Source: Clostridiales bacterium CCNA10 (GTDB lineage Bacteria > Bacillota > Clostridia > Oscillospirales > Oscillospiraceae). From it: DNA of 64,000 bases. Location of the stretch: assembly GCA_003573975.1 (NCBI GenBank), contig AP018533.1:2666319-2730318 (forward strand). The letters are read 5' to 3'. The position numbers and the translations under genes were made by a program. Position 1 is the stretch's first letter. Every line of letters starts with the position of its first letter. Below, piece after piece: positions 24,187 to 58,512 of the stretch. Under the pieces are notes generated by a model. The model was not told where the DNA came from. It worked only from the letters and a program-made list of their open reading frames with translations, and did not search any database.

Positions 24187-25683
24187 ATGAAATCAGGCTT
24201 GCGGCGCTCGCTCGCGCTGGCCCTCGGCTTGTGTACCCTGACGGTCGGAGCTTCCGCCGCCTCTGTCACCTTCCGGGATGTCCCTTCAAGCTACTGGGGA
24301 TATTCCCACATCACCAAGGCCGCCTCCAACGGGCTGGTCTCCGGCCTGGGAGACGGGCGGTACGGCCCTGAGTAAAAGCTGTCCAACGCCCACTTTGTCA
24401 CCATGATCTGCGGGATGTTCTATGAGGACGAGGTATCCGCCCAGGGCAGCTCTTCGGACTGGTGGCGGCCCTATCTCAACGCGGCCTATTCCGCCGGCAT
24501 CCTGAAGGGCACTCAGGCCTCCCAGCAGCGGGCTTCCGCCGGAGATTGGAGCGCCTCCGTTGCCGAGGCCCAGATCAGCCGCTATGATATGGCCCAGATC
24601 ATGTATCATGTGGCTGTGGACCAGGGCTTTGAGGATCCCTCCGCCGCATCCCTGGCTTACGCCAGCGCCCGGATCCAGGATTTCTCCTCCATTCCCTCCA
24701 ATTACCAGTATGCGGTGCTCTACTCCTATGCCAAGGGCTTCCTCAGCGGCGGCCAGAACGGCCGCTTCAACGGCGGAAACAGCACCACCCGGGCGGAGGC
24801 CGCGGTGGTCCTCTGCTCCCTGTTCGAGGAGCAGGAGTCTCTCCTGTCCCCCACCTACAACAACTCCAACCGCCTGACGGACAACTCCGCCGTCACGGAG
24901 GAGAACGTCTCCGATCTGCTGCGGGAGCTGGAGGCCGAATACCCCTCCTTTGACCAGTGGAACACCGACCGGGTCTATACCTCCAAGGTCCTGGGCCGCG
25001 GCTCCGGTGAGGCAGGCTTCGCCTATATGCTCAGCGACCGGGTATTCGGTGCCATCTCCTCCTATGAGCTGGACGACCCCGAGGACCTGCGGGTGGGCGA
25101 CCTGATCTACGATGACTATGAGGAGAAGTATGGCCTGATCCTGTCTGTGGACACCCGGAATGAGACGGTGGACTATGCCACGGTAGACGATGACAACGAG
25201 ATTGACTGGGATGGCTGGTGTGACTTTGATGACCTCTCTGATATGACCACCCGCTACCCCGATGAGGACGAGGATAACGACCAGGGGGATGAAGAGCTGA
25301 CCAACGGCAAGCCCACTACAGAGCGCAACGTCTCCAATCTGCTGGACGACCTCATAGAGGACTACGAGCAGGGCGACTCCTGGGACGAGGATGACAAGTA
25401 CACCTCCGACGTCCTGGGCTCCGGCTATGGGGACGAGGCCTTTGCCTACTTTATCAGCGACGAGATCTTCGGCGATCTGGAGGACTCCTCCGTCCGGGAG
25501 CCTGAGGACCTGAAGGCGGGCGACGTGGTCTATGACGACAATATGGAGCGCTATGGCGTAGTCCTTCAGGTCGATACCAGCGACGACACTGTGCAGTACG
25601 CCACCGTGGAGGACGAGGAGATCAACTGGAGCTATTGGTGCGACTTTGACGATCTCTCTGACATGACCACCCGCTACCCCTGA
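24187..25683 (+). pseudogene. S-layer-homology (SLH) protein with internal stop codon
   Basis: ATG 24187 follows AAAGGAGGAGA. A signal peptide (ALALGLCTLTVGASAAS) is followed by an SLH repeat (VTFRDVPSSYWGYSHITKAA). At residue 63 a TAA codon (24373-24375) interrupts that motif in mid-repeat, exactly where an SLH repeat should continue as KLSNAHFVTM in the same frame. Downstream, two more SLH-like repeats and two tandem copies of a roughly 125-residue acidic domain, each ending DFDDLSDMTTRYP, stay intact to 25683. If translated it would be a cell-wall-anchored surface protein. The rest of the frame is undamaged, so the nonsense change is recent, or readthrough or a sequence error is involved. 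Confidence 0.75.
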
Positions 25684-25694
25684 TGGGAACACAG

Positions 25695-25739
25695 ATAAGG
25701 GCCGGGCAGACCGCAAAATGCGGTCCGCCCGGCCCTTAT
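25695..25739. terminator. Bidirectional terminator
   Basis: The long inverted repeat ATAAGGGCCGGGC ... GCCCGGCCCTTAT includes the inner arms GACCGCA / TGCGGTC. It lies between the converging SLH and lrgB genes. Confidence 0.75.
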
Positions 25740-25745
25740 CTTATT

Positions 25746-26435: not shown

Positions 26436-26805
26436 GATTCTCCTCCCCTTTTCTCCGGAACAGCCGCAGCATCAGCTGCACCGTCCAGCTGGTGGCCAGA
26501 TAGACCACCGGCGTGGTCAGACCCACAATGACCAGCAGGGGCACCACCTGGCTTTTTAACATCGCCCCGTGCTCCATGGTGCCCACCAGGGATGGGATAA
26601 AGAAGAACGCCATATTGGCGATCAGGAAGTGTGAGACCGACTGGATCTGCCGCTCCTTGACCGCTCCGGTCAACAGCAGGACCATCAGCAGGATCATACT
26701 AATCACACTGGCCGGAAAAGACACCGGGAGCAGCGCCGCCACGCCCTCTCCCACCAAGCTGATCCCAAAGATCAGGGCCAGCTCTCCCATAACATTAACA
26801 TTCAT
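26428..26805 (-). CDS. LrgA/CidA-family holin-like membrane protein
   Basis: A 125-residue protein with four hydrophobic helices. ATG 26805 (MNVNVMGELALIFG) has GGAAGGG upstream; the longer open frame beyond it runs into repeat DNA. PASVISMILLMVLLLTGAVK and FFIPSLVGTMEHGAML match the LrgA family. It is partner to the LrgB-like gene that follows. The pair lies downstream of lysA and the structured repeat, so expression may depend on readthrough or an unseen promoter. Confidence 0.88.
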   Translation of the reverse strand: MNVNVMGELALIFGISLVGEGVAALLPVSFPASVISMILLMVLLLTGAVKERQIQSVSHFLIANMAFFFIPSLVGTMEHGAMLKSQVVPLLVIVGLTTPVVYLATSWTVQLMLRLFRRKGEENHG

Positions 26806-26836
26806 TGATCCGCTTCCCTTCCTGTCAAATCGCCCA

Positions 26837-27110
26837 GTCCCTCTGACTCCCAGATCGCTGTGGCGAAATAGTCTTCCGGCGTTGCCCGGAAATGGACCCG
26901 TCCATTCCCGGGGACCCGTTTTTTCATTGCTCGGCGGAACTGAATTCCGCCTCCGCCAAGGTTTTGCCTCTGGCAAAACGCTTGTACGGCGCTTACGCGC
27001 CGCTCCATCTGCGATGGGGCCCCCGCCGAAACGCCGGGGAACTGCCTGCTCAGACTGCCCTGGTCCCTCTTACTCCCAAATCGCCGTGGCGAAGTAATCC
27101 TCTGGCGTTT
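26837..27110. repeat. Structured mobile repeat, copy A, with duplicated lysA 3' end
   Basis: A 178-bp element (26885-27062) is bracketed by a 48-bp direct repeat (26837-26884 and 27063-27110; 40 of 48 identical by eye). The right copy is the 3' end of lysA, including its stop; the left copy repeats that coding tail. Inside are hairpins AATGGAC/GTCCATT, GGCGGAA/TTCCGCC, GTTTTGCC/GGCAAAAC, CGGCGC/GCGCCG and CCATC/GATGG. The same element, same length and orientation, occurs at 52548-52727. Confidence 0.8.
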
Positions 27111-28335
27111 CGGCGCGCCGGATCAGGCGGGCGGAGCCGTCCTCCTGGAGCAGCACCTCCGCCGAGCGCAGGCGGCCGTTGTACTGATAGCCCATGGCGT
27201 GGCCGTGGGCCCCGGTGTCGTGAATGACCAGCAGATCGCCGATCTCCACCTCCGGGAGCATCCGGTCGATGGCAAACTTGTCGCTGTTCTCACACAGGGA
27301 GCCGGTCACATCGTACTTGTGGTCGCAGGGGACGTCCTCCTTCCCCATGACCGTAATGTGGTGATAGGCCCCATAGATGGCCGGCCGCATCAGGTTGGAG
27401 GCGCAGGCATCCACCCCCACATACTCCTTGTAGGTGTGCTTCTGGTGGAGCACCCGGGTCACCAAGTGCCCGTATGGGGCCAGCATGAAGCGCCCCAGCT
27501 CGGTACACAGAGACACGTCCCCCATGCCCGCGGGGACCAGGATCTCCTCGTAGGCCTTCCGCACCCCCGCCCCGATGGCGGCGATGTCGTTGGCCGGCTG
27601 CTCCGGGCGGTAGGGCACCCCCACGCCGCCGGACAGGTTGATGAAGGTGATGTGGCAGCCGGTCTCCTCCTTCAGCTCCGCCGCCAGCTGGAACAGCACC
27701 CGGGCCAGGGCCGGATAGTACTCGTTGGACAGGGTGTTGGAGGCCAGGAAGGCGTGGATGCCGAACTCCTCCGCCCCCAGCTCCTTCAGACGGCGGAAGG
27801 CCTGGGCGATCTGGGGCCGGGTCATGCCGTACTTGGCCTCCCCCGGGTTGTCCATGACCTGAAAGCCCTCTTCGCTCTCTCCGACCTGGAATACTCCACC
27901 TGGATTATACCGGCAGGAGATCTTTTTGGGGATATAACCCAGGGTGCTCTTCAGAAATTCCACATGGGTGATGTCATCCAGATTGATGGTCGCCCCCAGC
28001 TTCTCCGCCAGGACGAACTCCTCCGCCGGGGTATCGTTGGAGGAGAACATGATCTCCCCGCCCCGGAAGCCGCAGCGGTCGGACATCATCAGCTCGCACA
28101 GGGAGGAGCAGTCCACCCCGCAGCCCTCCTCCCGCAGGATCTTCAGGATCTGGGGATTGGGGGTGGCCTTCACCGCGAAGTACTCCGTATAGCCGGGGTT
28201 CCATGCAAAGGCCGCTTTCAGCGCCCGGGCGTTCTCCCGGATGCCCCGCTCATCATACAGGTGGAAAGGGGTAGGGTATTGACGGGTGATATCCTGGAGC
28301 TGTTCCAGGGTGACAAACGGTTTTTTCACATCCAT
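27070..28335 (-). CDS. lysA: Diaminopimelate decarboxylase
   Basis: A 421-residue PLP-dependent, alanine-racemase-fold enzyme making lysine from meso-diaminopimelate. The Schiff-base lysine lies in YTEYFAVKATPNPQ (near residue 53). The glycine-rich phosphate loop is FINLSGGVGVPYRPE, and substrate residues lie in TGSLCENSDKFAIDR. It ends with TPEDYFATAIWE, whose coding sequence is duplicated downstream. A related possibility is carboxynorspermidine decarboxylase, but the CENSD motif favours LysA. Confidence 0.85.
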   Translation of the reverse strand: MDVKKPFVTLEQLQDITRQYPTPFHLYDERGIRENARALKAAFAWNPGYTEYFAVKATPNPQILKILREEGCGVDCSSLCELMMSDRCGFRGGEIMFSSNDTPAEEFVLAEKLGATINLDDITHVEFLKSTLGYIPKKISCRYNPGGVFQVGESEEGFQVMDNPGEAKYGMTRPQIAQAFRRLKELGAEEFGIHAFLASNTLSNEYYPALARVLFQLAAELKEETGCHITFINLSGGVGVPYRPEQPANDIAAIGAGVRKAYEEILVPAGMGDVSLCTELGRFMLAPYGHLVTRVLHQKHTYKEYVGVDACASNLMRPAIYGAYHHITVMGKEDVPCDHKYDVTGSLCENSDKFAIDRMLPEVEIGDLLVIHDTGAHGHAMGYQYNGRLRSAEVLLQEDGSARLIRRAETPEDYFATAIWE

Positions 28336-52485: not shown

Positions 52486-52498
52486 ACAAAACGCCTGG

Positions 52499-52776
52499 TA
52501 GATCCGTTTCATCTCCAGTGCATCCTCCGCCTGCGTCCCCGCGCTTTTTCCCATTCGATGGGCCATCGAATGGGGACCCGTTTTTTCACTGCTCGGCGGA
52601 AATCAATTCCGCCTCCGCCAAGATTTTTGCTCCGCAAAAATGCTTGTTCGGCGCAGACGCGCCGCCCCATCTTGAGATGGGGCCCCTGCGAAAGCGCCTC
52701 TATTCTTGGGCGGCCAGCGCCTCCTGATAGATCTTCTTCATCTCCAGTGCATCCTCCGCCTGCGTCCCGGCGCTTT
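52499..52776. repeat. Structured mobile repeat, copy B, with duplicated gene 3' end
   Basis: A 180-bp element (52548-52727) is flanked by a 49-bp direct repeat (52499-52547 and 52728-52776; 45 of 49 identical). The right copy is the coding tail of the TIM-barrel gene. The left copy encodes AGTQAEDALEMKRIYQAF plus a stop, apparently the old C-terminus. Stems: CCATTCGATGG/CCATCGAATGG, GGCGGAA/TTCCGCC, ATTTTTGC/GCAAAAAT, CGGCGC/GCGCCG and CCCCATC/GATGGGG. Matches copy A at 26885-27062. Confidence 0.82.
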
Positions 52777-58168: not shown

Positions 58169-58209
58169 GGTTTCGGCCGCCGGAGGCGGCCTCCAGTCTT
58201 CGGTATTTG

Positions 58210-58300
58210 GATGCTCGGGGTAAATAAATTGCCTCTGCGCAAGGTTTTACTTGCGGCAAAACACTTGTGCGGCGCATAAGCGCCGCCGCCCGGAAGGCCA
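58210..58300. repeat. Remote copy C of the structured repeat
   Basis: The segment attgcctctgcgcaaggt, then GTTTT...AAAAC and GCGGCGC/GCGCCGC stems, aligns with the core of copies A and B (about three-quarters identical over 60 bp by eye). The outer stems and flanking duplications are not recognisable. Confidence 0.5.
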
Positions 58301-58512
58301 ATGGAATATCTCGAACTTAGAATATCAAGCGCAAAAACACCAGAGCGGCAGCATCCCCTCGACCAGGGTGCTGCCGCTTTCCGACTGACCCGCTGCTTTC
58401 CACTCCGCTTGGATCTCTGATGCAAAAGCCGTGTTCCATCATGCGTCAGACTGGCTTCTGGACATATAGGTTTGGACACGCCGAACATGAGGGGCAAACC
58501 GCTCCTCAGTTC

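Follow-up and report, generated by a model that had tools for sequence, protein, structure and literature searches.

A family of small hairpin elements lying between two coding-like copies of a host gene's 3′ end in Clostridiales bacterium CCNA10 and its relatives

The lysA locus and the element family

Why would the 3′ end of a gene be present twice, with a structured repeat between the two copies? The question is raised by a locus in the window, that is, the whole 64-kb stretch (64,000 nt) of the Clostridiales bacterium CCNA10 genome that was analysed. There, a minus-strand ORF (27070–28335, stop codon 27070–27072) carries the Pfam domains PF02784 (Orn_Arg_deC_N) and PF00278 (Orn_DAP_Arg_deC) of a decarboxylase of the diaminopimelate type, which we take, as did the preliminary description of this DNA, to be lysA. 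A direct count on the raw sequence confirms what had been described before, namely that the 3′ end of this gene with its TAA stop (27063–27110, minus strand) is repeated at 26837–26884 (minus strand), with 40 of 48 positions identical; local alignment of the flanks gives 54 identical positions among 66 aligned. This repeat is missed by a seeded search, since the seed is 9 bases long and the longest run common to both copies is 8. The gene-proximal copy, the working 3′ end, will be called the inner tail and the other the outer tail. The two differ in seven codons, of which six are synonymous and the remaining one is the stop, changed to TCA in the outer tail, where the frame extends for 14 more codons (sequence, local alignment and frame analysis).

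The 178 bp between the tails, formerly read as a single unit, resolve into a hairpin element at 26885–27032, read 5′ to 3′ on the minus strand (genome positions 2693203–2693350, minus; covariance-model hit of 125.1 bits, E 3.5e-35), and a separate inverted copy of the target site, V′, at 27024–27035 (minus), which the model match overlaps. The target site itself, V, lies within lysA and spans the insertion point (27104–27115, minus), as placed by the exact inverted repeat and by the rule that holds for the family. V′, a putative guide, is an exact 12-bp inverted copy of it at a distance of 68 nt, and the helix score of the two is 30.6, against 19.6 for the 95th percentile of the null (locus L076). 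In gene direction and all on the minus strand, V′ is adjoined by hairpin hpA (27005–27017), whose pairing was read by eye over the copies and is absent from the RNAalifold consensus. Then come hp1 (26988–27001), seen in the alignment, in pairs changed on both sides and in fixed columns, and followed by the conserved linker GTACAAGCG; hp2 (26957–26984), seen in the alignment, the RNAalifold consensus and fixed columns; hp3 (26933–26951), with fixed columns and both-side changes in up to four of nine sequences per pair, followed by GAGCA and an A-rich stretch; and, by eye, the terminal hairpin K (26885–26913), which is the tail end of the element and the point where the outer tail begins. Genes of the LrgA and LrgB families (Pfam) lie downstream, and a consensus scan of 26700–27300 found neither an intrinsic terminator nor a sigma-70-like promoter. 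Further on, between the end of a plus-strand ORF (24403–25683) and that of lrgB, there is a 23-bp inverted repeat (25693–25741, 96% complementary, 3-nt loop), possibly a two-way terminator.

The lysA unit belongs to a family of non-coding hairpin elements of about 140–150 nt found in gut bacteria. BLAST with the element gives 15 matches in its own genome, and a covariance model built from nine copies gives 24 hits there at E up to 0.1, as well as hits at E up to 1e-4 in 35 of 61 genus genomes (its own included), with up to 52 per genome. Named carriers include, among the matches listed, records of Flavonifractor, Pseudoflavonifractor, Intestinimonas, Oscillibacter and Dysosmobacter. The order of parts in gene direction, established largely by eye, is V′, hpA, hp1, GTACAAGCG, hp2, CCTTGGCG(C/G)AG, hp3, GAGCA, the A-rich stretch, GGGGTCCCC and K, a variable stem that ends, by eye, in GGG or GGGG. 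No Rfam 15 family matches at gathering score in 11 element loci, where the two matches below it are mir-4854 (L001, off the element) and ncS54 (L013 1397–1481, 24.4 bits against a gathering score of 43), the latter overlapping the element start by about 35 nt. A limited search of the open-licence PMC literature found no description of this element. The core pattern is also present in two IMG/VR contigs filed as viral (L385 and L386), twice in one of them, and partial matches (80% and 88% identity over 38–43% of the query) occur in NZ_AP023421.1 and NZ_AP023416.1, large replicons filed as plasmids (Pusillibacter faecalis, Vescimonas fastidiosa).

Three family copies lie within the window according to the model. 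The second (52550–52695, minus; 117.5 bits) is found where a TIM-barrel gene resembling xylose isomerase (PF01261) ends; the tail of this gene (52723–52776, minus) is identical at 49 of 54 positions to an outer tail at 52494–52547 (minus; flank alignment and sequence). The third (58178–58310, minus; 71.0 bits) has no detectable tail duplication and is flanked at its tail end by a terminator-like hairpin. Together with L084, L104, L106, L111, L132 and others, it forms a subclass of copies without tail duplication that have an initial hairpin such as CCGGCCTTCTGGCCGG and whose end adjoins a strong terminator-like hairpin (AAAAAGAAAGAC...GTCTTTCTTTTT); some of them adjoin an apparent tRNA sequence.

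Duplicated gene ends and an inverted copy of the target

Is the duplicated gene end peculiar to lysA? The preliminary description proposed to test whether each copy duplicates 40–50 bp of the adjacent gene end, and duplication is indeed the rule. We compared the flanks of 118 oriented copies, made up of 99 of the 101 genus hits (two repeats dropped) and 19 copies from the genome itself (the four weakest hits left out), of which 115 were usable after removal of three with too little flank. Left and right flanks score 60 or more in 80 of the 115 and below 40 in 31, against 23 scores of 60 or more among 705 mismatched flank pairs, these 23 being, we think, mainly the same gene in other genomes. 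Within the CCNA10 genome, 14 of 24 copies score 48 to 194 and the 99th percentile of 552 mismatched flank pairs is 27, which rules out a chance repeat; the two top mismatched pairs (63 and 240) score above some real pairs and are taken to be the overlapping tandem copies L079/L085. A second set, consisting of contigs found by pattern (86 hits entered, partial hits excluded; 6 already seen and dropped; 78 usable), yielded unique loci with clean duplications in 49 of the 78, and 46 of these 49 are sense gene ends. In the cultured commensal Flavonifractor plautii ATCC 29863, one of the three copies examined has a duplicated tail. The outer tail begins 0 to 4 nt past the end of the model in 54 of the 80 high-scoring copies.

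Removal of repeats and the requirement for a clean start of the duplication left 66 unique loci in the first set, in which the aligned tails measure 34–132 nt (median 75). A sense ORF ends at the element in 62 of the 66, the other four being unassigned, and none of the 62 assigned loci is a gene start. In these 62, stops are found between 80 nt upstream and 2 nt downstream of where the element starts, a range little narrower than the choice of loci allowed, and ORF frames, chosen automatically, look wrong in a few loci (L101, L144 and L299, for example). The loci represent 31 clusters of different gene tails. Many belong to housekeeping genes, which include, by NCBIfam, uvrB, aspS, lepA, infB, argG, gpmI, tsaD (below the cut-off of one model and above that of another), ftsY and groES, and Pfam adds genes with EF-G, HIT, response-regulator and rubrerythrin domains; the decarboxylase (lysA), LrgA, LrgB and TIM-barrel labels are likewise Pfam-based, and the remaining ones rest on motifs. 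The change of the stop to TCA, to which the preliminary description had drawn attention, is real at lysA but atypical, the stop being retained in the outer tail in 35 of the 37 loci where it falls within the alignment.

Some loci hold tandem arrays in which tail and element recur together in head-to-tail order (L079/L085 in aspS; L120, L126 and L059 with two hits each), as expected from recombination between tails. At gpmI of the CCNA10 genome (L082 1501–1641), V′ is present (18 bp, loop 67) and the outer tail absent, and the K end of that element seems to be replaced by another GC-rich sequence.

A second feature, not noticed in the preliminary description, is V′, which lies between the stop codon and the hairpins, adjoining hpA. 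Helix searches took the best match, with shuffles searched identically as the null, and in 60 of 66 loci the V/V′ helix scores above 95% of shuffles (the medians being 26 for the loci and 13.5 for the shuffles). V comprises about 5–6 nt of the gene before the insertion point and 6 or more nt beyond it. When wobble pairs are not rewarded, the helices are 7–24 bp long (median 14; 64 loci), and the loop between V and V′ measures 65–75 nt in 48 of these 64, with a smaller group at 85–105. Similarly, in the second set the inverted copy scores above ten shuffles in 42 of 49 loci, with a spacing of 65–75 nt in 25 of the 42. This usual spacing of about 70 nt, together with the inverted copy of the target, points to a dedicated geometry, and it may be that V′ serves as a base-pairing guide. 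V′ fits local variants of the gene. A first count at positions where the tails differ within V (14 matches to the inner tail, 3 to the outer and 1 to neither) suggested that V′ travels with the inner tail, but it was biased by helix placement; the masked recount (24 positions) gives 10 matches to the inner tail, 8 to the outer and 6 to neither, so there is no sign of such travelling.

Both tails evolve as coding sequence

If the second tail were a plain copy, as had been supposed, it should bear the marks of a dead duplicate. However, the inner and outer tails of the 62 loci differ with a dS of 0.351 and a dN of 0.026, that is, a dN/dS of 0.074 (95% bootstrap interval 0.052–0.107). Amino acids differ at 55 of 1243 codons, and simulations of a neutral outer tail, in which the gene was allowed synonymous changes only, gave a mean of 340 differences and a minimum of 291 in 100 runs, which rules out neutral decay. 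Codon differences are synonymous in 215 cases and non-synonymous in 59 (58 loci), where neutrality predicts 22.7% synonymous, and the second set has 124 synonymous and 48 non-synonymous differences. In 51 of the 62 loci the outer frame and the gene stop at the same codon; in 5 the two ends are within three codons of each other, and in 6 the outer frame ends later, running 5 or more codons past the position of the gene's stop. The average dS of 0.35 seems high for variation within a species.

The gene uvrB gives a view of each tail separately. Of 59 genomes that match uvrB, 52 were read, and 13 of these 52 loci have two tails. When polarised by the nearest single-tail relative, 19 differences fall on the inner tail, 19 on the outer and 3 are undecided; this equality speaks against a replacement of the gene end by foreign DNA in which the inner tail alone would have changed. 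Over 16 codons, only 1 of 208 outer-tail residues is unseen in 39 single tails, and inner tails have none; the exception belongs to L235, whose element looks, by eye, partly deleted. A seemingly redundant second gene end is thus under strong purifying selection, for which the known elements that we compared offer no explanation.

The history of lysA itself can be followed in its relatives, where 27 of the 31 loci examined have a readable end. An element with a second tail is present in 3 of the 27 (G000, G018 and G069), and a single tail within 700 nt in 23. Thus, 23 of the 24 readable relatives without the element have one lysA tail. Neither of the two outcomes that would have refuted the preliminary description has come about, namely a lack of flanking duplications in most copies and the presence of both lysA tails in relatives without the element. 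The remaining one, in G008, has a V′ and a worn tail that look scar-like by eye, with a score of 17 that is within background, and it is probably a scar. The lysA element of G018 has a different downstream gene and, by eye, no hairpin K.

Candidate mechanisms and known relatives

Which process could leave a gene end, an inverted copy of its target and a hairpin element in this order? We give most weight, though not by much over the intron and the long target duplication considered below, to a small, non-autonomous mobile element of single-stranded DNA with a base-pairing guide, resembling IS200/IS605 but outside the families tested; this is a tentative preference. In its favour are the family rule and the guide-like V′ described above, the grouping of cores by gene, the coding-like evolution of both tails and the single lysA tail in element-free relatives; against it count the 31 of 115 copies with flank scores below 40, the high dS, the closeness of the two tails of one genome, the even match of V′ to inner and outer tails and the distribution of RAYT genes given below. 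Such an element would enter a target of about 14 nt within the last 75 nt or so of a gene and would point the same way as that gene. Read in gene direction, the result would be the part of the gene that precedes the insertion point, then a duplicate of its remainder including the stop (median about 75 nt), V′, four hairpins, K and lastly the original remainder, and the insertion would do little harm since the first copy would restore frame and stop. The tail and the target would be copied at the first arrival in a new gene, with an enzyme acting in trans. If the element were repeatedly lost and regained on alleles of one gene, each tail would at times be the sole gene end, and we propose that the old tail evolves as coding sequence because of this. 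A bolder version, which we consider doubtful, is a naturally programmable DNA-guided element that stores the reverse complement of its target beside the first hairpin, copies about 77 nt as a new gene end and thereafter homes to that gene only. The earlier proposal that the element copies the end of its host gene holds as regards the duplicated end and the intact gene. The routes that it named (template switching, retro-copying or unequal repair) are conjectural. The geometry appears to be a dedicated one, and RVT_1 reverse transcriptases, which match in 27 of the 61 genomes, do not track the element: it is present in 14 of these 27 and in 21 of the 34 without, and G010, with 45 copies, has no RVT_1, so that a reverse transcriptase as driver was discarded.

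The closest likeness is to the IS200/IS605 family (IS608, ISDra2), which shares hairpin ends, a single orientation and a set distance between site and guide. IS608 selects the sites that it cleaves and enters by base pairing with a tetranucleotide guide located 5′ of each hairpin, and engineered versions recognise 12 and 17 nt (excerpt of PMC5934647). Similarly, V′ stands just 5′ of the first hairpin and pairs with the flank of the left site (60 of 66 loci); the pairing is shared, and its use as a guide may be. On the other hand, V′ is about 14 nt long (7–24) instead of 4, the spacing of usually some 70 nt is filled with a copied host gene end, no transposase gene lies inside the element, and the target varies by gene, with no common flanking tetranucleotide by eye and a duplicated tail of 34–132 nt. 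REPs, of 21–65 nt with a tetranucleotide guide, resemble the ends of IS608-type elements (excerpt of PMC6006769), and the spread of REP-like hairpin repeats is described as poorly understood (excerpt of PMC8266576). The present element, like REPs and REPINs with their RAYTs, is small, repeated hairpin DNA beside genes, and a RAYT-like gene near uvrB shares its site in 6 of 30 loci; it differs in its size of about 140–150 nt, its five hairpins, its long and variable V′ and the gene-tail copies.

Which enzyme might act in trans? Y1 transposase domains occur in 30 of the 61 genus genomes at E up to 0.001. In the CCNA10 genome, the uvrB element is closely followed downstream by a RAYT-like gene, which has a weak match to PF01797 (E 0.00094, below cut-off). 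RAYT homologues were found in 33 of the 61 genomes (22 of 35 element-bearing and 11 of 26 element-free ones), and the element in 22 of these 33 and in 13 of the other 28; no homologue was found in the well-covered element-bearing genomes G011, G066 and G068. Element-rich genomes cluster in the RAYT tree, from which species kinship is not separated out. The six RAYT loci that hold an element (G000, G014, G022, G025, G031 and G080) all have it beside uvrB or its outer tail. However, RAYT also sits downstream of uvrB where the element is absent (in G010, G016 and G029, for example), so that the adjacency is partly a matter of place, and RAYT was set aside as a demonstrated driver and is a lead only. 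In many genus genomes a RAYT-like gene lies downstream of uvrB as if vertically inherited (L046 1711–2250; L190, L193, L195).

Does the element act as DNA or as RNA? Searching 116 distinct copies for stems yielded 4002 Watson-Crick, 50 G-T, 14 A-C and 33 other pairs, with 36 of the G-T in K. Such scarcity of G-T was first read as proof of DNA action, G-U pairs numbering 93 of 1253 (7.4%) in tRNA structures, but the same stem finder applied to 59 tRNAs returned even fewer (2 G-U of 725). It therefore hides wobble pairs and the comparison is invalid; this failure of the like-for-like control lowered the weight of the DNA model and raised that of the intron. In the fixed columns of hp1, hp2 and hp3, which are strongly conserved, there are 2419 Watson-Crick, 24 G-T (1%) and 7 A-C pairs, the outermost column pair of hp1 (76 of 97 G-T) being excluded from the count. 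G-T exceeds A-C in both counts (50 to 14; 24 to 7), as a functional RNA strand would also give. Overall, the evidence leans slightly towards single-stranded DNA.

An RNA intron is, in our estimate, unlikely. According to it, the element and the first tail would be spliced out of the transcript, so that the gene is joined to the outer tail, and V′ would be an internal guide pairing with the two exons where they meet. Both tails would stay coding because spliced and unspliced messages would give the same protein. V′ is complementary across the insertion point in a topology like that of P1/P10, a feature of group I introns. All assigned loci (62 of 66) are in sense orientation, and expression of both tails in one cell would directly explain the equal constraint on them; the excess of G-T over A-C in the hairpins also agrees with an intron. 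Like group I introns and IStrons, moreover, the element has an internal-guide topology in V′ and its insertion is harmless to the host gene. Against this, no intron family is among the Rfam matches at E up to 1 in the 11 loci, nor is a catalytic core recognised there by Rfam; a stop codon precedes the element; and V/V′ mismatches have no wobble preference (14 G-T, 14 A-C). Furthermore, the fixed stem columns have only 1% G-T against 7.4% in tRNA structures, albeit in strongly conserved columns, and the outer frame passes the gene's stop by 5 or more codons in 6 of 62 loci. In group I introns, the internal guide sequence comes with a U-G pair that is critical and highly conserved (excerpt of PMC4227781), and inspection by eye of the junctions found no constant U-G pair.

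A long target-site duplication appears equally unlikely. Nicks about 77 nt apart would be duplicated by repair, V′ would arise by fold-back synthesis, and the outer tail would be refreshed from element-free alleles. This agrees with how well V′ fits local gene variants and with the distances between tails. Two tails of one genome differ by 0.077, against 0.15 for gene bodies and tails across genomes and 0.19 for element cores across genomes, and for 44 of 63 pairs each of the two within-genome distances is smaller than every between-genome one, so that local copying or homogenisation fits better than an import of tails. Some tail pairs are identical (85 of 85 positions in L052), and the uvrB tails of a genome share, by eye, clade-specific amino acids. 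What stands against a long duplication is that a neutral outer tail is excluded (55 differences, where 340 would be expected), so an extra exchange has to be assumed. In addition, of the 13 uvrB loci, 6 and 7 have a tail that lies nearer to some other genome than to its partner, in a noisy comparison of 60 nt.

The cores group by gene, with 27 of the 50 named copies nearest to another one of that gene and 30 of all 116 copies nearest to one of their own genome; together with the distances above, this indicates that elements are old within each gene lineage and that tails are younger or homogenised. An old vertical repeat that no longer moves, with frequent loss and with tails homogenised by unequal recombination or gene conversion, would suit core divergence of about that of genes (0.19 and 0.15), these gene-specific lineages, the tandem arrays (L079/L085; two hits each in L126 and L120) and the probable scar at G008 lysA (by eye), but it is improbable, as it leaves unexplained why the same element, spacing and inverted copy recur at 31 different gene tails and why an outer tail that would be neutral after each conversion is under purifying selection.

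Two further groups of known elements may be set beside the guided single-stranded-DNA element that we prefer. Phage 21 and e14 restore the 3′ end of icd on integration; they are large elements with one target each and an integrase of their own. As in such systems, the element-side copy keeps the gene whole, the old end is pushed outward and the differences are mostly synonymous; here, however, one element of about 150 nt is found at 31 different gene tails. MITEs, which have terminal inverted repeats and short target duplications, are likewise short, non-coding, multi-copy and presumably moved in trans; the present element differs in its duplicated tail (34–132 aligned nt, median 75), its position at gene ends in the 62 assigned loci and its inverted copy of the target. 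None of the known mobile elements compared explains gene-end copies in which both tails are coding-like.

Most copies record both the target, as the inverted copy, and the event, as the two tails, so that the mechanism can be read locus by locus. Should the element turn out to be an intron, it would be of a kind absent from Rfam. If, instead, V′ is a guide, the family would be a natural counterpart of the 12- and 17-nt recognition that has been engineered in IS608 (excerpt of PMC5934647), and an example of how an element may insert at the ends of housekeeping genes and leave them functional.
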